The notes beneath the pieces are model-generated. The model was not told the DNA's origin, ran no database searches, and saw only the letters and a program-made list of their open reading frames with translations. Both the position numbers and the translations under genes were made by a program. A DNA stretch of 41,450 nt from Candidatus Zhuqueibacterota bacterium. GTDB lineage: Bacteria; Zhuqueibacterota; Zhuqueibacteria; Zhuqueibacterales; Zhuqueibacteraceae. This document shows positions 15,193 through 37,766 of the stretch, one piece after another; the stretch's first letter is position 1; each line of letters opens with the position of its first letter. The stretch covers positions 1 to 41,450 of the forward strand of contig QEVD01000006.1 of the NCBI GenBank assembly GCA_003576975.1. The letters are read 5' to 3'.

Positions 15193-17280
15193 TCAATCGT
15201 CGATTTTCAAATAAATTTCAAAAGCCACTTTGCCGTCTTCCATGGTGACGACTTGGTGTCCACCGGTGGAGCCGGCCTTGATTTTTTTTAACCCCATGTA
15301 GTTGAACAGCGCCATGTAGCCTGCCGGAATCACCTCGGCCGGCTCGCCGCTCACTTTGGTATAGAGATATTCATCGCCTTGCTTCATTCTGTAAATAAAA
15401 TATGGCGGGCTTACCTCCACCTCTTGCTCTACAACAACGCCTTGCAAGCTGCGGTGTCCGCCGGGCTTGGGGGTGTTGGGATCATCGAAATAAACGCCCA
15501 ACACGTGGTATTGGCGAAACGGAATTTTGTTCGCCTCGAGATGGGTTTGCACTTCGGTGATGTACTTTGGCGCTTCGGCATAGGAGCCGAAAAATTCCTT
15601 GCAAACTGCGGCCAAATCGCGGTCAAGCGTGAGGCGTTTGACTTCCGGCAAATGATTCATGTCGATTCCTTTCTGTTGGCGGGCGCCGGCATTGTGGGCG
15701 ACCCATTCAAAAAACAATTCCTGCAAACGTTCATTTGAAGACGCCTGGTGCAGCATGAACATCTCACGGGGAAAAACCTCGGCGTAAACCGCAGGTTTTT
15801 CCGTTTTCAGCCATTTTACAAAATCATCGAAGACTTCCATGCGCCGTTTTTTAAGCGAAGGCGCTTCCTGCCAAGTCGCCGTAACGATCTTGCCGTCATG
15901 CAGCACAAACGTGCCCTCCCCCTCCATTTCATACAAGCCGACGACTTCAAATTTATTGCTGCGAAAAGCGCCGTGAAAGCTGACGGTGTCTCCGGCGACT
16001 CTGACATTGTCATAATGAAACTTCGCGCTGTAGACAAAATTAGCGCGATAATACTGCGCCAGATTTTCTTTATAGATTGCCGAAAGCGGCGCGCCGGTGT
16101 GATCGACCTCGATCAGCGCGGCAGCGTCATCATACAAATCGAGTAAGCGCGTCAAATCCTGCTGTTCATAAGCCGTTTGAAAACGCCACAAGATGTCGCT
16201 GGTGGCCTCAGAATTCTTGGCGCTCGTGAGCAGCGTACAACTCGCCAACAACGCCAGCCCGGCGGCGAGAGGCGCAGCGAAACGTCCAGGCGATGCCTGG
16301 CTGAGGCGGCGGATACGGCGCTTCATGTAATTGCGATCTTCCAGAATGCCCACGGTTCCGGGAATCGGATCGAGCCTGGCGGCCAGCTCCAGCACTTTGA
16401 TAATCGTGAAGCCATAGGCTTTGCGCTCGCGCGGCGGCGAGGTTGAGAGCGCGAGATCGTCGCACGCAATTTCGAGATCGGAGCGCATGCGATTGAATGC
16501 CAGCCAGAGAACCGGATTGAACCAATAAATGATTTGCGTAAACGTGATCAACCAGCTCACAAATACATCTTTGCGTTTGATATGCGCCAATTCATGCAGA
16601 AAAACATGGCGCAGCTCATTCTCGTTCAGCGCGTCGAGCATGCGCTGCGGTAAAAGCAGGCGCGGCCGCAGATAGCCCAGCAGAGCCGGGCTTTGCGCAT
16701 TTTCGTCGGTAATGATATTGATGGGCAGATAGACCTGCAATTCGCTTTTACAATCTTCGAGCAAATTGAGCAGGCGCGGATCAACCAGGGGACGGAGTTT
16801 GCGCGCGCGGCGCCACAGGCGCACATTCAACAACAAGGCGCGCATGCAAAGCAGAAGGACACCAAGCAGCCAAAGGCCGCACAAAACCGCCGCGGCATGC
16901 CGCTGCAACAAGTTTAGCGGAGACAACGGCGGCGCGGCCATCGACACGGCGGTTTCTTGAAAATCCGTAATGCCATGGCCTGGCATTGCCGCACGAGGCA
17001 AGCCTTCCGCCGCTATTTCTTTCTCTCCAAAAATTCTCAGCCGTTCGAACGTGAGATAACTAAAAATGCTGAAACGGCTGTCGGGCGTGACCGGCAGCAG
17101 CAATTTGACCAGCAACAACAACCACAGCGCAGAGGCCCATTTCGGCGAGAGCTGATTGCGAAACAGCCGCTGGAGGGTGAAGATCATCGCCGCCAGCAGC
17201 GAGGCTTGCCAGGAGTTGTGCAGCAGCCACGCGCCCGCGGCTTCAACGTTTGCGAGAAGATTTACCATTGCCGGTGCCAC
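15193..17280 (-). CDS. BlaR1-type M56 membrane peptidase with NTF2-like and GyrI-like C-terminal domains
   Basis: This 695-residue protein has transmembrane segments at ~21-38, 48-64, 128-150 and 335-352. Between the third and fourth lies the M56 zinc-peptidase domain with intact HELAH (H229, E230, H233), then FNPVLWLAFNRMRSDLEIACDDLAL. In BlaR1/MecR1 the C-terminus is a penicillin-binding sensor. Here it is replaced by an NTF2/SnoaL-like segment (~357-480) and a GyrI/effector-binding-like domain (~541-693: VLGVYFDDPNTPKPGGHRS, IPAGYMALFNYMG). The start is GTG 17280 preceded by GAGGAAA, overlapping blaI by 38 nt. By analogy it senses a signal outside the membrane and cleaves BlaI to relieve repression. 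The ligand is unlikely to be a beta-lactam, because no SxxK/SxN/KTG set is present. Domain calls beyond M56 are by eye. Confidence 0.85.
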   Translation of the reverse strand: MAPAMVNLLANVEAAGAWLLHNSWQASLLAAMIFTLQRLFRNQLSPKWASALWLLLLVKLLLPVTPDSRFSIFSYLTFERLRIFGEKEIAAEGLPRAAMPGHGITDFQETAVSMAAPPLSPLNLLQRHAAAVLCGLWLLGVLLLCMRALLLNVRLWRRARKLRPLVDPRLLNLLEDCKSELQVYLPINIITDENAQSPALLGYLRPRLLLPQRMLDALNENELRHVFLHELAHIKRKDVFVSWLITFTQIIYWFNPVLWLAFNRMRSDLEIACDDLALSTSPPRERKAYGFTIIKVLELAARLDPIPGTVGILEDRNYMKRRIRRLSQASPGRFAAPLAAGLALLASCTLLTSAKNSEATSDILWRFQTAYEQQDLTRLLDLYDDAAALIEVDHTGAPLSAIYKENLAQYYRANFVYSAKFHYDNVRVAGDTVSFHGAFRSNKFEVVGLYEMEGEGTFVLHDGKIVTATWQEAPSLKKRRMEVFDDFVKWLKTEKPAVYAEVFPREMFMLHQASSNERLQELFFEWVAHNAGARQQKGIDMNHLPEVKRLTLDRDLAAVCKEFFGSYAEAPKYITEVQTHLEANKIPFRQYHVLGVYFDDPNTPKPGGHRSLQGVVVEQEVEVSPPYFIYRMKQGDEYLYTKVSGEPAEVIPAGYMALFNYMGLKKIKAGSTGGHQVVTMEDGKVAFEIYLKIDD

Positions 17281-29950: not shown

Positions 29951-29960
<10 letters not shown>

Positions 29961-30844
29961 ATTTGTGTTGCGAGACGCTCTGCTGCGCTTACCGTATTCT
30001 GCATCAACATTATGATGGTCATCGGGCCGACGCCGCCGGGAACCGGGGTGATCCCCGCCGCCTTGCTTTTGACGGCCTCGAAATCAACATCGCCAACCAG
30101 GCGATAACCTTTAGCCGCTGTAACATCTGTGACACGATTCATGCCGACATCAATTACCACGCCCCCTTCTTTCACCATGTCAGCCGTGACATACTTAGCC
30201 TGGCCGATTGCCGCGACTAATATATCCGCTTGCCGGGTGATTTGCGGCAAATTTGTGGTGGCCGAGTGGCAAATCGTGACCGTGGCGTTGGCTTGCGGCC
30301 TTTTCTGCGCCAGCAAAACCGCCAGCGGCATGCCGACGATTCCGCTGCGCCCCAAAATGACGACATATTTTCCCGACACCGAAAAACCGCTGCGCTGTAA
30401 CAATTCCGCAACACCGGCGGGCGTGCACGGAATGAAGGTCTCTTCGCCGTTTTGCAGTTTGCCGCGATTCACCGGATTAAACCCGTCAACATCTTTCTCC
30501 GGAGAAATCGCCGCCAGCACGCGTTGTGTATTGATGTGCTTCGGCAACGGCAGTTGCACGAGAATGCCATGAATCTTTGCGTCTTGATTCAACGTTGCAA
30601 TCAGATCGAGCAGCGCCGCCTCGGAAGTCTTGTGCTCCAATTTATGAACTGCCGAAAACAATCCCAGGCTTTCACACATCCTGGCTTTTGAGCCGACATA
30701 AACAGCGGAGGCGGGATCATCTCCTACCAAAACCGCCGCCAAGCCCGGCGTCACGCCTCTGTGCTGCAGTGCACGAACCCTTTCAATCAGCTCGGCTTTG
30801 ATCTGCTCGGCGATGCGTTTGCCGTCTATGATAACTGCTGACAT
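29951..30844 (-). CDS. folD: Methylenetetrahydrofolate dehydrogenase / methenyltetrahydrofolate cyclohydrolase
   Basis: The product is 297 residues from ATG 30844 (start MSAVIIDGKRIAEQIK). Catalytic-domain motifs are SAVYVGSKARMCESLGL (with the active-site Lys), GILVQLPLPKHI and DVDGFNPVN. NADP-binding motifs are VILGRSGIVGMPLAVLL, then TPVPGGVGPMTIIMLMQNT. It interconverts 5,10-methylene- and 10-formyl-tetrahydrofolate, feeding purine and formyl-methionine synthesis. No SD is obvious. The TAG stop (29951-29953) lies inside the following tRNA-Arg gene, so folD and the tRNA are likely on one transcript, processed by RNase P. Confidence 0.96.
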
Positions 30845-30922
30845 ATGGTAATGGAGAAACCGGATTTTGACGGCCACAGAACTGCAGCGGCGCAATGACT
30901 AAACCCGATTGCACGCTCTTGA

Positions 30923-31729
30923 TTATTCCAAAAACAACCGTTCGATAGTTACGGCCTTCATCGTCTCTTTGCTGATGCGCACGATCACCCCGCACAACCT
31001 GACTTCGCCGCTCGCCGGCTCGAAGCGCATCGGCACCGCGCGCATGAAACGTTTGATGGCGGTTTCTTTTTTCATGCCGATGACCGAGTCAAACGGCCCG
31101 GTCATGCCGACATCTGTGATGTAGGCCGTGCCGCCTGCTAGGATTTTTTCATCCGCTGTGGGCACATGCGTATGCGTCCCAATCACAGCGCTCACTCGGC
31201 CATCCAGATACCAGCCCAGCGCCATTTTTTCTGCGGTGGCCTCGGCATGAAAATCAACAATCACGACACTGGCCTGGCGTTCGATGCGCCGCAGAATGTC
31301 ATCGGCGATGCGAAATGGGCAATCAATTTGATAAAGATAGGTACGGCCTTGCAAATTGATGACGGCGGCTTTGACGCCCTCTTCCAGATCGACGAGCGCA
31401 TATCCTCGTCCGGGATTCGCGGGCGGATAATTCGCCGGGCGCAGCACACGCCCGCTCTCTGGCTCATCCTTTTGCCAAATTTTAAAAACGTCCGGATTTT
31501 CCCACGTGTGATTGCCGCCGGTGATAACGTCGATGCCCAATTCAAAATACTGCTTTGCCAGCGCGGCAGTAATGCCTTTTCCCTCCGCCGCATTTTCGCC
31601 GTTGGCGACAATCAAATCCGGCTGATAAGTCTGCTTTAACTCCGGCAGCAGCCGTGTGAGGATCTCCAAGCCAGGCTTGCCGATAATATCTGCGATAAAC
31701 AGCAGCGTCCACGCTTCCACTTCTTTCAT
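30923..31729 (-). CDS. ymdB: YmdB-family metallophosphoesterase
   Basis: This 268-residue protein has all metal-binding motifs of the YmdB/TIGR00282 family: ADIIGKPG, ANGENAAEGKG, TGGNHTW, VDFHAEATAEK, GTHTHV, and the C-terminal DVGMTGPFDSVIGM. In Bacillus, YmdB is a 2',3'-cyclic nucleotide phosphodiesterase affecting biofilm genes (established). It is encoded 78 nt downstream of rny, the widely conserved pairing. The RNA-processing context suggests a role in RNA turnover or cyclic-phosphate removal. Confidence 0.93.
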   Translation of the reverse strand: MKEVEAWTLLFIADIIGKPGLEILTRLLPELKQTYQPDLIVANGENAAEGKGITAALAKQYFELGIDVITGGNHTWENPDVFKIWQKDEPESGRVLRPANYPPANPGRGYALVDLEEGVKAAVINLQGRTYLYQIDCPFRIADDILRRIERQASVVIVDFHAEATAEKMALGWYLDGRVSAVIGTHTHVPTADEKILAGGTAYITDVGMTGPFDSVIGMKKETAIKRFMRAVPMRFEPASGEVRLCGVIVRISKETMKAVTIERLFLE

Positions 31730-31807: not shown

Positions 31808-33376
31808 TCACTTGGCGTAATCCACTGCGCGATACTCGCGCACGATGGTCACGCGAATCTGGCCCGGGTAATGAATACTCTGCTGAATCTTGCGCGCAAT
31901 ATCGACCGCCAATTGTTCGGCGCGCGCATCGTCCACTTGGGCATGCTCGACGATCACACGAATCTCGCGCCCGGCTTGCAAAGCATAGGTGCGGATCACG
32001 CCGGGAAAGGCGTTGGCTATGCTCTCGAGCGTCGACATGCGCTGGAAGTAATTCGCCAGCGTTTCTTTCTGCGCACCAGGGCGGGCAATAGAAATCTCGT
32101 TCGCGGTTGACACGATGATCGAGGCCGCCGTCAACACCTGGCCATTGCGGTTGAGATTGTTGGCGAACAAGATCGCATTCTCCACGGCCTCGTTCTCGCC
32201 ATAGCGCCGCGCCAGCGCCGCGCCCACTTCCGCGGCGCTCGAATCGCTTTCGCGCTCCACCGCGCTGCCGATCTCATGCAGCAAGGCGCCGCGCTTGATC
32301 AAATACGTCTCGATCCCAACCTCCGCCGCGATGACGCCAGCGATGAGCGCGGTCTCAATGCTGTGTTGCAAAAGATTTTGCCCCTGGCTGGAACGATATT
32401 TTAATTTGCCGAGCAACCGCACCAGTTCCAGATGCAGGCCGTGCAAACCGGCTTCGAGCATGGCTTGCTCGCCGGCTTCACGAATCAATTCCTCGACTTC
32501 GTTGCGCGTCTTCTCCACCACTTCTTCGATGCGGCCCGGATGAATGCGGCCATCGGTGATCAGCTTTTCCAGCGACAGTTTTGCAACTTCACGGCGCACC
32601 GGATCAAAACCGGAGAGCATCACCACTTCGGGGGTGTCATCAATCAGCACTTCAATGCCGGTCACCGCTTCAAACGAGCGAATGTTGCGGCCTTCGCGTC
32701 CGATGATGCGGCCTTTCATGTCGTCATTCGGCAGATGCACCACGGACACCGTCGATTCGACGACGTGGCCGATGTTGGTGCGCTGAATCGCCTGCACCAG
32801 AATATCCTTGGCGTCGCGATTCGCCACCATGCGGGCGCGATCTTTAATCTCTTTGACCGTCTGCGCCGCTTCCTGTTTGGCCATTTCGAGAAAATTATTG
32901 AGCTGGATGCGCTTGGCCTCTTCATTCGTCAGGCCGGAGATTTGTTCGAGTTTTTTATTTTCCTCGGCAATGAGGCGATCCAACTCCTGACTTTGCAGCT
33001 TCAGATTCGCCTCGCGGCTGCGCAAACTCTCCTCTAATTTCGTTACTTCCTGCTTTTTCTGATTCAACAAATCGACTTTGCGATCCAGGCTCGTTTCGCG
33101 TTGCGCAAGCTGGCTTTCCAGCTTTTGTATCTGCTGCCGGCGTGACTTGATCTCCTGCTCCAGATCCTGGCGTTTTTGAAAAAGCTCGTCACGCACCTCG
33201 AGCAATTTAGCCTGCTTGAGACTTTCTGCTTCCTGGGTGGCGTCTGCAGTGATTTTCTGCGCGGCGGCTTCGGCGTGGGCAATCTTCTCGAGGCCGAGCT
33301 TTTGCCGCATCAGCCAGCCGAGCAGAGCGCCAAGTCCGAGCGCGGCCACGATCAGTACGATCACAATGATCGTCAT
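31808..33376 (-). CDS. rny: RNase Y with degenerate HD domain
   Basis: The product is 522 residues with SD GGAGG. It has an N-terminal transmembrane anchor (3-21), a long coiled coil (~28-185) and a KH RNA-binding domain (~208-275, GRIIGREGRNIRSFEAVTGIE). The C-terminal HD region (~320-440) ends in the diagnostic REYRAVDYAK. The canonical HD residues are mostly gone. HDIGK reads HEIGS (H367, E368), the HHGD region reads ANNLN (405-409), and the AAD of the last motif reads TAN (N426). Only the first His (LLQHS, H338) and H367 remain. The protein may be catalytically dead or unusual while keeping RNA binding and membrane attachment. Confidence 0.94.
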   Translation of the reverse strand: MTIIVIVLIVAALGLGALLGWLMRQKLGLEKIAHAEAAAQKITADATQEAESLKQAKLLEVRDELFQKRQDLEQEIKSRRQQIQKLESQLAQRETSLDRKVDLLNQKKQEVTKLEESLRSREANLKLQSQELDRLIAEENKKLEQISGLTNEEAKRIQLNNFLEMAKQEAAQTVKEIKDRARMVANRDAKDILVQAIQRTNIGHVVESTVSVVHLPNDDMKGRIIGREGRNIRSFEAVTGIEVLIDDTPEVVMLSGFDPVRREVAKLSLEKLITDGRIHPGRIEEVVEKTRNEVEELIREAGEQAMLEAGLHGLHLELVRLLGKLKYRSSQGQNLLQHSIETALIAGVIAAEVGIETYLIKRGALLHEIGSAVERESDSSAAEVGAALARRYGENEAVENAILFANNLNRNGQVLTAASIIVSTANEISIARPGAQKETLANYFQRMSTLESIANAFPGVIRTYALQAGREIRVIVEHAQVDDARAEQLAVDIARKIQQSIHYPGQIRVTIVREYRAVDYAK

Positions 33377-33571: not shown

Positions 33572-33862
33572 CTATTCTTTCAAATTCTCATGCAAAAGTT
33601 TCGATAACTGCTCGGCCTTGGCCTCGAAACTCTTCAACAGACCCGCTTTCTCGTCACGCTCGCGGAACAGTTCGTCCGCAATGTTCAACGCCGCCAGGAT
33701 CGCCACCTTGAGCGAGGATTTGGCGGCCGTACTTTGGTCGACTTCACGCATTTTGCGATCGACATACTCGGCCACCCGGCGGATGTATTCCACATCAACC
33801 TCGCCGCGAATGGGATACTCGGTGCCGTAAATGTTGACTTTTAATACTGTGCCTTCAGGCAT
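33572..33862 (-). CDS. zapA: Cell division protein ZapA
   Basis: This 96-residue protein has an N-terminal ZapA globular part (VLKVNIYGTEYPIRGEVDVEYIRRVAEYVDRKM) and a C-terminal coiled coil (~55-95, ALNIADELFRERDEKAGLLK). Length and pattern fit ZapA, which cross-links FtsZ filaments at the division site. It lies 53 nt downstream of a ZapB-like coiled coil and upstream of the structured RNA and rny, the classical pheT-zapB-zapA order. Confidence 0.9.
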   Translation of the reverse strand: MPEGTVLKVNIYGTEYPIRGEVDVEYIRRVAEYVDRKMREVDQSTAAKSSLKVAILAALNIADELFRERDEKAGLLKSFEAKAEQLSKLLHENLKE

Positions 33863-33915: not shown

Positions 33916-34197
33916 TCAGAACTGCAATTGCAGTTCCTCCAATTTGGCCAACATCTCTTCCACTTTACTGCGAATTTTTTCCTCACGTTCCTTCATTTGC
34001 TGCGACTCTTGCGCGCGATTCTGCACATTGCTCAATTCGCCGCGCAGCCTGTTGAGTTCTTCCTCTTGCGTGTGAAAACGGGCTTCCGCCGCCTCCACTT
34101 GCGCGCGCAGCTCCTCATTTTCATGCTTGAGCGTCTGTATCAACTTGATCGCTTTGGAGATTTTATCTTCCAGTATCTCGAAACGTTGGATATCCAT
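33916..34197 (-). CDS. ZapB-like coiled-coil protein
   Basis: The product is 93 residues from ATG 34197 (AAGGAT upstream). The whole chain is helical coiled coil (FEILEDKISKAIKLIQTLKHENEEL, then QEEELNRLRGELSNVQNRAQE). It resembles short ZapB-type division proteins in size, helix pattern and position beside zapA, but coiled coils converge, so the function rests mainly on context. Confidence 0.75.
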   Translation of the reverse strand: MDIQRFEILEDKISKAIKLIQTLKHENEELRAQVEAAEARFHTQEEELNRLRGELSNVQNRAQESQQMKEREEKIRSKVEEMLAKLEELQLQF

Positions 34198-34314
34198 CAA
34201 ATGATCCTTCAATCAGCGTGGTTAAAAATTACTTTAAAAGCATCCTCAAACATTCCATGCGTCATGCCCGGCGGCCTCGGCTCCACAAGAGAGCCGGCCC
34301 CCGGGTGTAGGCGC

Positions 34315-36699
34315 TTAAGTCCGCAACACCGCGCCGCATTCGCGGCCAAGCGCGTCCAAAATATTCTTTTGCCGCAGTTCCACCTCTTCGTCGCGCAATG
34401 TACGATCGTCGGCGCGAAAGGTCAGCGCAAAAGCCATGCTCTTTTTGCCCGCTGGAATGGGTTTACCGGTATAAAGATCGAACAGTTCGAGCCGTTCCAG
34501 CAAGTGATCGCTCGCGCTTTCAATGACGGCGTAAATTTTCTCCGCCGGCACGTCGTGGTCAACGATAATTGCCAGATCGCGCTCAACCGGCGGATACTTC
34601 GGAATACTCTGAAAGGTGCGCTGCCAATCAATGCTGGCAATCACCTCCTGGAGTTTTAATTCAAACAGAAAAACATCCGTTTCAACGTCATACTCTTTGA
34701 GAATCTCTGCCCGCAGTTTACCCGCAAAACCGAGGCGGTTTGCGCCGATAAAAATCTCCCAACCGTGTTCGAGATAGGCATGCGTTGTGAGCGGCTTGAA
34801 AACCAGCTTCGGCAATAACAAGACGCGTTCCAGCACTTCCAACACCCCCCGCAAATCGGGCAGGGCATAGCCGCGAGTTTTGCCCAGCCAATTCGGATTT
34901 TCTGCGGCGCCCACGGCAATGGCTGCCAGACGCTGTTCTTCGCAGATTTCTTTGCCGGGCTCCTTCCAAAACGCGGCGCCGGTTTCATACAACCACACAT
35001 CACGGTTTTTACGATTGAGATTGTACGCGAGCGAATGCAACAACGTCGCCGCCACTGCCGGCCGCAACACTGACAATTCTTCATTCAGTGGATTGATGAG
35101 CGGCAATACCGCGCCGCCCTCCGGCAAAAACAACCCGGCCAGTTTGGGTGAAATCAAATCTATGGTAATGGCTTCATCAAAGCCCAGGCCGGTCATCGCG
35201 CGGCGCAATTTTTCCAGCGCTTCTTCTTCGCGATTGCGCTCGCCGCCGACAAAAACCTGCGAATGCAATTTTTCAGAGAATTTATCATAGCCATAAATAC
35301 GCGCGATCTCTTCGATCAAATCGATCTCGCGCGTCAAATCCGGGCGAAACGTGGGCGCCGCCACCTGCCAGCTCGCGGCGGATTTTTTTGATACTTTGCA
35401 CTCCAGCCCGGTTAGAATTTTTTCCATGCGACCGGACGGCACTTTGCCGCCCAACACGTGCGTCACCCGCTTGGGGCGCAGCGTGATTTTGGCGGGCTTG
35501 ATCGGCGCGGGATACACCTCGGCGATGCCGCGCGCAATCTCCCCGCCGGCGGTATCCTGCATCAATTGTGCGGCGCGATTGACGGCGAACGGGATGCCGT
35601 TGGGATCCGTGCCACGCTCAAAACGCCGGCCTGCTTCTGATGTCATGCCCAATCGCTTTGCCGTGCGGCGCACCGCAAGCGGGTTGAAATGCGCGCACTC
35701 GATCAAGATATTTTTCGTCGCGTCGCTGACTTCGGAATTCAAGCCGCCCATCACGCCGGCCAGCGCGACATTGCGATGGCCGTCGCAAATCATCACGTCC
35801 TCGGCGAGCAATTCATGCTCCTGGCCATCAAGCGTTTGGAATTTTTCTCCGGCGCGCGCACGCTGCACAATGATTTTGTCTTTTTCGAGCAAATCGTAGT
35901 CGAAAGCGTGTTGCGGCTGGCCGGTTTCCATCATGACGTAATTCGTGACATCGACAATATTCGAAATCGCGCGCACGCCCACGGCGTTCAGGCGCTGGCG
36001 CATCCATTTCGGCGAGGGCTTAACGGCGATATTTTTCACAATACGCGCGGCATAGCGCGGGCAACCCTCGGCATCTTTTATTTGAATAGTGATCAATTGC
36101 TCGATAGGCGCGCCGGTTTCACGCAGCTTGATTTTGGGCAATTGCAGGGGCGCGCCGGTAATCAAACCGACTTCACGCGCGATGCCGATAATGCCCAGGG
36201 CATCCGGGCGATTGGGCGTAACCGCGATGTCAAAGAGCCAGTCTTGTTCGAGCGTATCCACAAAATGCTGCCCCACGCGCGCCTGCCCGTTCAGCACGAG
36301 GATGCCTTCATGCTCGTCCGACAGGCCCAATTCCATCTCGCTGCAAATCATGCCTTGTGATTGCACCCCGAAGATTTTGCGCGCTTCAATGGTCAAGCCG
36401 TTCGGCAGCCTCGTCCCGGAGGGCGCAACCGCAACGAGTTGATCGACCGCGACATTCGGCGCGCCGCAAACCACGTTGAGTGTTGTGCTGCCAATATTCA
36501 CCTCGCAGCGTTTGAGGTGATCGGAGGCCGGAATGTTCTCACAAACCAGCACTTTGCCGACGACGATCGCCTTCAGGTCAGGCAGCAATGATTGGCAACT
36601 TTCGACTTCGAAACCGATCATCGGCAGGCGTTCGGCGAGCGCTTCCGCGGTCAGCGGTGTGTCAACGAATTCGCGTAGCCAGTTATAAGTGAATTTCAT
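34315..36699 (-). CDS. pheT: Phenylalanyl-tRNA synthetase beta subunit
   Basis: The product is 794 residues from ATG 36699 (MKFTYNWLREFVDTPL). Domains in order are an EMAP/Trbp111-like tRNA-binding domain (~40-150), B3/B4 editing-site region (~215-390), B5 (~400-475), a catalytic-like core (~480-690) and a C-terminal ferredoxin-fold anticodon-binding domain (~700-794, FQSIPKYPPVERDLAIIVD). This is the full-length bacterial form. It acts with PheS as an alpha2-beta2 enzyme charging tRNA-Phe. It begins 51 nt after pheS. Confidence 0.97.
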   Translation of the reverse strand: MKFTYNWLREFVDTPLTAEALAERLPMIGFEVESCQSLLPDLKAIVVGKVLVCENIPASDHLKRCEVNIGSTTLNVVCGAPNVAVDQLVAVAPSGTRLPNGLTIEARKIFGVQSQGMICSEMELGLSDEHEGILVLNGQARVGQHFVDTLEQDWLFDIAVTPNRPDALGIIGIAREVGLITGAPLQLPKIKLRETGAPIEQLITIQIKDAEGCPRYAARIVKNIAVKPSPKWMRQRLNAVGVRAISNIVDVTNYVMMETGQPQHAFDYDLLEKDKIIVQRARAGEKFQTLDGQEHELLAEDVMICDGHRNVALAGVMGGLNSEVSDATKNILIECAHFNPLAVRRTAKRLGMTSEAGRRFERGTDPNGIPFAVNRAAQLMQDTAGGEIARGIAEVYPAPIKPAKITLRPKRVTHVLGGKVPSGRMEKILTGLECKVSKKSAASWQVAAPTFRPDLTREIDLIEEIARIYGYDKFSEKLHSQVFVGGERNREEEALEKLRRAMTGLGFDEAITIDLISPKLAGLFLPEGGAVLPLINPLNEELSVLRPAVAATLLHSLAYNLNRKNRDVWLYETGAAFWKEPGKEICEEQRLAAIAVGAAENPNWLGKTRGYALPDLRGVLEVLERVLLLPKLVFKPLTTHAYLEHGWEIFIGANRLGFAGKLRAEILKEYDVETDVFLFELKLQEVIASIDWQRTFQSIPKYPPVERDLAIIVDHDVPAEKIYAVIESASDHLLERLELFDLYTGKPIPAGKKSMAFALTFRADDRTLRDEEVELRQKNILDALGRECGAVLRT

Positions 36700-36749
36700 T
36701 TGCCCGGAGCATGCCACTCAACCGAATGACATGGAGAATTTTGTGAATG

Positions 36750-37766
36750 CTAAAATTGTCTTAACAAGCGCACGTCATTGTCATAAAACAAGCGCAGATC
36801 CGTCACGCCGTATTTTCGCATCGCCGGCCGCTCCACGCCCATGCCCCACGCAAAGCCGGTATACTTTTCCGAATCGATGCCTAGGCGTTCGAGCACGATG
36901 GGATTCACCATGCCGCAACCGAGCAGCTCGATCCAGGATTGCCGCGCTTCGAACCAGACATCAAGCTCGGCGCTCGGCTCGGTGAAGGGGAAATAACTCG
37001 GGCGAAAACGGGTTTTGACCTCATCATCAAAAAACTTGCGCGCAAACGCCGCCAGCACGCCCTTGAGATCGGCAAACGTTACGCCTTCATCGACCCACAA
37101 GCCTTCGACTTGATGGAACACCGGCGAATGCGTGGCATCCGGCGTGTCTTTGCGAAAACACCGGCCCGGCGCGATGATGCGAATCGGCAACGGCTTGTTT
37201 TCAAGCGTGTGAATTTGCACCGGCGAGGTGTGCGTACGCAGTAAATAGGTTGCGCCGTTGGCGCGGCGCGGATCGGACAGATAAAAGGTGTCGTGCAAAT
37301 CGCGGCTGGGATGATCCGGCGGCAAATTCAGCGCTTCGAAATTATAGTAATCGGTTTCCGCCAGCGGGCCCGAGGCAATCTCAAAGCCCATGCTCACGAA
37401 AATAGCCTTGATTTCATCGAGCGCTTGCAGCACGGGATGGCGCGAACCCAACCGCCGCGGGATGCCGGGCAGCGTCAAATCAACGGTTGCGCCCTGGGCC
37501 CGCGGCTTGCTGATTTCATTTTTCTTCGCGGCAAACGCCGTTTCACTCGCTTCGCGCAATTGATTCAAGCGCTGGCCCAGGCGCGGGCGCAATTCACCCT
37601 CCACCTGTCCCAATTTTTTGAAAGACTCGGTGATCTCACCTTTACGCGCGAGAAAGCGGATGCGCACCGTTTCCAAATCATTTTCATTGGAAGCCGCGCG
37701 CAGCGCTTCGGTGAAACGTGTTTCGAGTTGATCAAGCTCGGCGAATAAGTCTAACAAGGCGCCCAC
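36750..37766 (-). CDS. pheS: Phenylalanyl-tRNA synthetase alpha subunit
   Basis: This 338-residue protein has an N-terminal coiled coil (~5-85) then the class II core: GSRHPVLQALDEIKAIF, LLRTHTSPVQIHTL (motif 2 neighbourhood), APGRCFRKDTPDATHSPVFHQVEGL and GFAWGMGVERPAMRKYG (motif 3). The start is uncertain. GTG 37766 directly abuts the rplT stop; TTG 37757 would use the AGGTGG across the junction as its ribosome site. Either way it is translationally coupled to rplT. Confidence 0.96.
   Translation of the reverse strand: MGALLDLFAELDQLETRFTEALRAASNENDLETVRIRFLARKGEITESFKKLGQVEGELRPRLGQRLNQLREASETAFAAKKNEISKPRAQGATVDLTLPGIPRRLGSRHPVLQALDEIKAIFVSMGFEIASGPLAETDYYNFEALNLPPDHPSRDLHDTFYLSDPRRANGATYLLRTHTSPVQIHTLENKPLPIRIIAPGRCFRKDTPDATHSPVFHQVEGLWVDEGVTFADLKGVLAAFARKFFDDEVKTRFRPSYFPFTEPSAELDVWFEARQSWIELLGCGMVNPIVLERLGIDSEKYTGFAWGMGVERPAMRKYGVTDLRLFYDNDVRLLRQF

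Follow-up and report, generated by a model that had tools for sequence, protein, structure and literature searches.

A ymdB-linked RNase Y-family protein with an eroded HD site in Zhuqueibacterota, and its canonical second copy elsewhere in the genome

The rny1 locus and its HD site

The window, the whole 41,450-nucleotide stretch of a Candidatus Zhuqueibacterota contig analysed here, carries on its minus strand the genes pheS (36750–37766), pheT (34315–36717), a zapB-like gene (33916–34212), zapA (33572–33862), rny (31808–33376), ymdB (30923–31729; a TIGR00282 metallophosphoesterase) and folD (29951–30895), in that order. The zapA-rny-ymdB position of this rny, hereafter rny1 (product, Y1), is common to relatives with one rny copy. 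Among loci with long flanks, zapA lies beside rny1 in 43/43 from the window's phylum and 27/27 from a second phylum (below), and ymdB in 43/43 and 22/27, respectively. The first-pass annotation of the window had described the adjacent ymdB as keeping its metal motifs, and the gene is indeed full length, with NGEN, GGNHTWEN, DFHAE and GTHTH, which we take to be those motifs, all present. Elsewhere in the window (15193–17280, minus strand), a BlaR1-type M56 peptidase domain precedes a long C-terminal part whose SnoaL and GyrI-like matches fall below the Pfam cut-offs.

The rny1 gene is a single open frame of 522 amino acids with no internal stop, and its product scores 622.5 bits against the RNase Y model TIGR03319, above the equivalog cut-off of 454.35. 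The domain order (RNase_Y_N, KH_1, HD) assigns Y1 to the RNase Y family by homology, with a Pfam HD score of 34.3 bits compared to 66.5 bits for a second copy in the same genome (rny2; product, Y2). An N-terminal hydrophobic segment (residues 1–23; 33308–33376, minus strand, as are all features of the gene), with the RNase_Y_N match starting at residue 5, is a putative membrane anchor, and leads into a long helical, presumably coiled-coil region (residues 24–205; 32762–33307), where the AlphaFold2 model has helices at residues 2–146 and 151–199. The KH domain (residues 206–285; 32522–32761) has an intact GRIIGREGR loop and 57 of 80 columns invariant among 12 proteins of the window's order. In the HD domain region (residues 331–440; 32057–32386) the helices are kept in the model and the catalytic signature is lost.

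Polynuclear HD phosphodiesterases are reported to carry the signature H..HD..H..HH..D, and mononuclear HD enzymes H..HD..D (PMC8177086). Aligned to canonical RNase Y, the seven positions of the longer signature read H338, H367, E368, A381, A405, N406 and N426 in Y1 (H..HE..A..AN..N), all within 32087–32374. Five of the seven have changed: the HD couplet (H367-E368; 32273–32278) reads HE, A381 (32234–32236) replaces the His of GTH, A405-N406 (32159–32164) replace the HH pair and N426 (32099–32101) replaces the last Asp (AAD to TAN). The Lys of HDIGK is also replaced (S371; 32264–32266), and the two residues kept are the first His (H338; 32363–32365) and H367. The mononuclear motif is likewise absent from Y1 (H..HE..N) and occurs in some other eroded copies, for example in family f15 and in 28/46 from the second phylum. 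The loop of the former HH site is lengthened (32144–32170), with 45 residues separating the third His and last Asp positions as opposed to 42. A spacing of 42 was found in 256/277 aligned family members (including 78/78 outgroups and all rny2 measured), 44–46 only in 20 clade A proteins (families f1, f2 and f7) and 43 in a single clade B protein (G075).

The first-pass claim that most of the HD metal ligands are gone is thus borne out, as is its view that the protein probably does not act as a normal nuclease; a normal RNase Y is very unlikely. Its canonical reference motif, given as HHGD, was imprecise (HHED in 25/26 one-copy relatives from the class and HHDD in the other), and the loss itself stands. 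In H. pylori, mutating the HD His of RNase Y alone (H374A) is reported to resemble the knock-out or deletion (PMC11821409). For Y1, we infer from the residues at these positions that catalysis would have been lost.

The substitutions are lineage-wide. All 13 rny1 with a readable HD domain in the window's order (families f1 and f2) have HE..A/V..N, and E368 and N426 each occur in 12/12 of the long proteins and A405 in 11/12; no rny match was found in G013, from the same order. In G068, a second assembly of the species, the site is eroded in the same way and the protein differs from that of the window only by T47A. A close relative with the canonical site, which would have pointed to an error, is not among the 13 readable genomes, and chance and sequencing error were rejected as causes of the loss since the eroded state is common to the order and to the second assembly.

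A second RNase Y and its distribution in two phyla

The first-pass annotation had supposed that another nuclease might do the cutting, and a search of the genome for a second rny provided one. The rny2 gene (G000:C480:7105–8652) is 42% identical to rny1, scores 660.7 bits against TIGR03319 and has a canonical site (HDIGK, GTH, SHHED and AAD), so that a canonical paralogue accompanies the eroded copy, as in an unequal pair of the RNase J1/J2 type. Of the other nucleases for which a search had been proposed, RNase E/G is present as a single gene in the window's genome and RNase J was not found above the family cut-off there or in any of the 60 genomes searched (9/14 control genomes were above it). 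Genes of the RNase E/G family occur in 56/60 genomes whatever the rny copy number; neither nuclease tracks rny1 erosion, and RNase E/G as a compensating nuclease does not explain the pattern.

AlphaFold2 single-chain models of Y1 and Y2 (mean pLDDT, 84.3 and 82.8) have corresponding helices through the HD region. Sequence searches of solved structures returned only KH-type matches for the window protein, and the best matches for Y2 were also KH proteins. In Foldseek searches with the whole models the E-values were weak; high-ranking matches included YiiP/ZnT transporters, GlyRS and KH proteins, and both models matched the HD structure of PgpH (PDB 4s1b; E, 8.3e-3 and 1.5e-3).

The two genes share no gene neighbourhood, and none of six rny1 neighbour genes was found at 72 rny2 loci, some of which are short. 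In clade A, ccmE and ccmF occur at 19/19 rny2 loci compared and an adenosine deaminase at 11 of the 19, the latter also at two f15 loci. In the window's genome (L038, on G000:C480), a block at ~3.3–12.4 kb holds a presumably acyl-CoA dehydrogenase-like gene, small conserved genes, rny2, ccmE, ccmF and adenosine deaminase. A ~140-aa gene directly precedes rny2 at 18/24 loci compared and has no NCBIfam match. A ~75-bp element on the same contig (L038:349–424) is repeated at many sites and on many contigs of the related genome G068, on both strands and mostly at 74–86% identity, and is possibly a dispersed palindromic repeat.

In a genome of 776 contigs, the eroded rny1 might be suspected as a sequencing or assembly artefact and rny2 as a contaminant, particularly as rny2 was not found in G068, an assembly rated 100% complete. 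However, sequence flanking rny2 is present in G068 at 91–94% identity with the rny2 interval missing and one match reaching a contig edge, and the absence is therefore likely an assembly gap. Further, rny2 is found with shared neighbours in two congeners (G001 and G002; 90% and 88% identity), and the same eroded rny1 occurs in the congeners and the order, which makes artefact or contamination exceedingly improbable.

Within the window's phylum, 82 genomes were searched and 75 had an rny match. Two-copy genomes belong to families f1, f2, f7, f15, f16 and f17, and in all 25 that are readable the rny1 at the ymdB locus is eroded; excluding a fragment (G012), the count is 24/24, each having lost three to five of the seven residues. 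Among one-copy genomes with a full-length protein, 42/43 are intact, the exception being G069, a 72%-complete, 1.4-Mb assembly with an eroded copy and no rny2 found. The second copy is canonical in 26/26 readable cases. Left out of these counts were G039 and G042 (rny1 HD domain outside the assembly), G025, G051 and G086 (partial), G043 (a fragment, intact) and G068. The association between copy number and erosion rests on few independent events, since a test on independent pairs had only four of them, for which significance is unreachable.

An outgroup locus (L079) with the record label Candidatus Latescibacterota was itself unusual in having two rny copies. In this second phylum, distinct from that of the window in that all genomes except G060 were new, 60 of 64 genomes searched had a match and 46 had two copies. 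At least one of the seven residues is missing from rny1 in 45/46 two-copy genomes (one residue in 19, two in 13, three in 12, four in one and none in one), and erosion is milder than in the window's phylum. Without counting the first His of HH, which is variable, 44/46 are eroded (G125 drops out). Fully intact proteins are found in 10/14 one-copy genomes, or 13/14 ignoring the same His (9 of 13 intact when restricted to >430 aa); in G094–G096 (L232, L231 and L237) only this His is changed, to Leu, and G131 is eroded with no second copy found. The reverse case occurs in G110 (L206 and L278), where rny1 is intact and rny2 has Gln for the first His of HH. Fully canonical rny2 were identified in 38/43 readable genomes and the other five differ only at the first His of HH, a weak marker, since it is also Ser in the rny2 of G147–G150, and a residue that, from these sequences, may be dispensable. 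Second-phylum rny2 (L189 and others) are often longer, ~530–600 aa where complete, compared to 516 aa in the window's genome.

Order of residue loss and selection

Across the 70 two-copy rny1 counted in both phyla, neither the first His nor the His of HD is ever changed. The GTH His is changed in 68/70 (24/24 in the window's phylum, 44/46 in the second), the last Asp in 35/70 and the Asp of HD in 12/70, all 12 from the window's order, which has the furthest erosion (up to five residues). By these counts, the residues added in polynuclear phosphodiesterases were lost first, and the residue set of a predicted one-metal site is either retained or altered by conservative substitution (D to E, D to N).

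In a tree on a subset of rows, rny2 from the two phyla group as a single clade (support, 99/96), which makes rny2 an old gene, either a paralogue or a transfer. The simplest history that we infer is one in which duplicates were resolved in two ways, either rny2 being lost or rny1 eroding. Erosion inside the window's phylum may have had one origin or two, with clades A and B joined weakly (84) in the rny1 tree and lying apart in a neighbour-gene tree that does not reject their joining (AU p = 0.275). The second phylum is a separate case of erosion because intact one-copy members are also present there, and rny1 has probably eroded more than once.

The first-pass annotation had held that the full-length gene is under selection, and this agrees with pairwise dN/dS (NG86). 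Values for rny1 are 0.058 (window–G001), 0.063 (window–G002), 0.061 (G001–G002) and 0.121 (window–G004), and for its HD region 0.058, 0.045, 0.042 and 0.075 in the same order of pairs; HD values for rny2 are 0.011 (window–G001), 0.020 (window–G002) and 0.043 (G001–G002). For both copies, the values from window pairs are rough because dS there is 1.3–1.5. In the unsaturated pair, G001–G002 (dS ~0.5), HD dN/dS is equal for the two copies (0.042 for rny1 and 0.043 for rny2). The rny1 gene is under purifying selection.

Constraint is distributed differently over the two copies. In the window's order, the 12 rny1 have 57/80 invariant columns in KH, as above, and 28/110 in HD, and the 11 rny2 have 53/80 and 71/107, respectively; f7 rny1 have 57/110 in HD. 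The median ratio of HD to KH divergence, (1 − HD identity)/(1 − KH identity), is 2.79 (f1/f2) and 2.32 (f7) in eroded rny1 and 1.87 in clade B rny1, equal to canonical groups (1.79–1.92 in three one-copy groups), with 0.70–1.33 for rny2 of the window's phylum (1.07 in the window's order). The second phylum gives 1.64 for two-copy rny1, 1.89 for one-copy genomes and 1.07 for rny2. Clade A therefore combines a conserved KH domain with an HD domain under looser constraint, and clade B and the second phylum have no such split by this measure. In each of four groups compared, Y1 at least matches Y2 in mean KH identity; for HD identity, Y2 exceeds Y1 in all three groups from the window's phylum and equals it (0.65) in the second phylum.

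Y1 could be a redundant copy drifting to a pseudogene after takeover by Y2, as stepwise ligand loss and the faster HD divergence in the window's order might suggest, but this is very unlikely given that no stop lies inside any of the rny matches listed, that dN/dS is 0.058–0.121 in four pairs, that zapA is beside rny1 at every long-flank locus (43/43 and 27/27) and that KH is strongly conserved. A more serious alternative, though one that we still consider unlikely, is that Y1 is an enzyme with changed chemistry, its multi-metal site having turned into a one-metal site that would act on another substrate or cleave RNA by a different mechanism. Residual or different chemistry is conceivable because H338, H367 with E368, and N426 could bind one metal. 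Families f7 and f14–f17 and the second phylum keep H..HD with Asp or Asn at the last position and have mainly lost H..HH, the mononuclear HD phosphohydrolases are described as using H..HD..D (PMC8177086), S. epidermidis RNase J2 is reported to be active with one metal and an Asp-to-Glu ligand (PMC7864078), and HD dN/dS remains low. Against this, the window's order replaces both Asp (by Glu and Asn) and loses the Lys of HDIGK, its HD domain drifts faster relative to KH, and the HD-GYP protein Bd1817, whose last signature residue is Asn, is reported as inactive on c-di-GMP, its GYP motif being also degraded (PMC8177086).

Roles of the two proteins and related systems

Retention of the N-terminal segment, coiled coil, KH domain and C-terminal end, together with the drift of HD, suggests that Y1 is probably a membrane-anchored RNA-binding subunit or a scaffold, the role put forward in the first-pass annotation. 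The reading we favour, and regard as somewhat probable, is that Y1 is a retained pseudonuclease paralogue that would act as a non-cleaving, RNA-holding or partner-recruiting subunit, with Y2 doing the cutting. Under such a mechanism, Y1 would be anchored at the membrane, would bind RNA via its KH domain without cleaving it and may feed or regulate Y2, the protein that would cut. It would dimerise, alone or with Y2, through the coiled coil and the C-terminal region, following model and NMR work on dimerisation of the B. subtilis enzyme (PMC9775385).

A closer partnership, in which Y1 and Y2 are obligate hetero-oligomers with Y1 as the structural or RNA-presenting half, has a precedent in the RNase J1/J2 heteromer, where J2 is reported to be a poor exonuclease (PMC4419217), and would fit the identities given above (KH at least as high in Y1 in four groups, HD higher in Y2 within the window's phylum). 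We think this rather unlikely. The two proteins differ at their C-terminal ends (REYRAVDYAK in Y1 compared to RETKATAYA in Y2), which belong to the proposed dimer interface, and this could equally insulate two homodimers. The genes are not co-located; as rny1 and rny2 share no neighbourhood, operon structure gives no hint of a physical partnership.

Extending the favoured reading of Y1 as a pseudonuclease subunit beyond one genome, we tentatively propose, at rather less than even odds, that RNase Y works as two components in at least two phyla. Cleavage would have passed to an old second RNase Y, and the RNase Y of the ymdB locus would repeatedly have become a dedicated non-cleaving RNA-binding subunit. 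The second-metal H..HH residues would have been lost first and the His pair of the first metal retained, which would divide RNA capture and cutting between two membrane proteins.

In many bacteria RNase Y is described as having a key part in starting mRNA decay, and since a single protein both cuts and scaffolds, the two roles are difficult to study apart. In the present case they have apparently been separated by evolution, probably more than once, and the Y1/Y2 pair offers natural alleles for testing which functions need cutting. Within the open-access literature, as represented by titles and abstract openings and with subscription papers mostly outside it, no naturally eroded RNase Y that coexists with a canonical copy was found, and such a pair appears to be undescribed. 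For annotation, the pair is a warning that the TIGR03319 model, at 622.5 bits and above its cut-off, would give the name ribonuclease Y to a protein that is probably inactive.

Among known systems, PgpH is a Foldseek neighbour of both models, but is an active c-di-AMP phosphodiesterase tabled as dinuclear (PMC8177086). Bd1817 is a natural HD protein with the same Asp-to-Asn change at the last signature position and is reported as inactive on its expected substrate; it differs in being an HD-GYP protein rather than an RNase Y and in having a di-iron site in the crystal (PMC8177086). RNase J1/J2 of Firmicutes, the nearest functional precedent, are likewise RNA-decay paralogues of which one has a canonical two-metal site and one a reduced site, including an Asp-to-Glu change, a likeness in how the pair may work only (PMC7864078, PMC4419217). 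Their fold and mechanism are different, J2 keeps some activity (retained with one metal and the Asp-to-Glu ligand in S. epidermidis, PMC7864078) although mutation of its active site is reported to have no effect on growth rate (PMC4419217), and heteromers, putative for Y1 and Y2, are reported there. With RNase Y itself (Rny/YmdA, TIGR03319), for example that of B. subtilis, Y1 shares the domain order (N-terminal segment, helical rod, KH, HD, C-terminal region), the ymdB neighbour and a score above the equivalog cut-off, and from which it differs in five of seven HD residues, in a longer loop and in having a canonical second RNase Y alongside.
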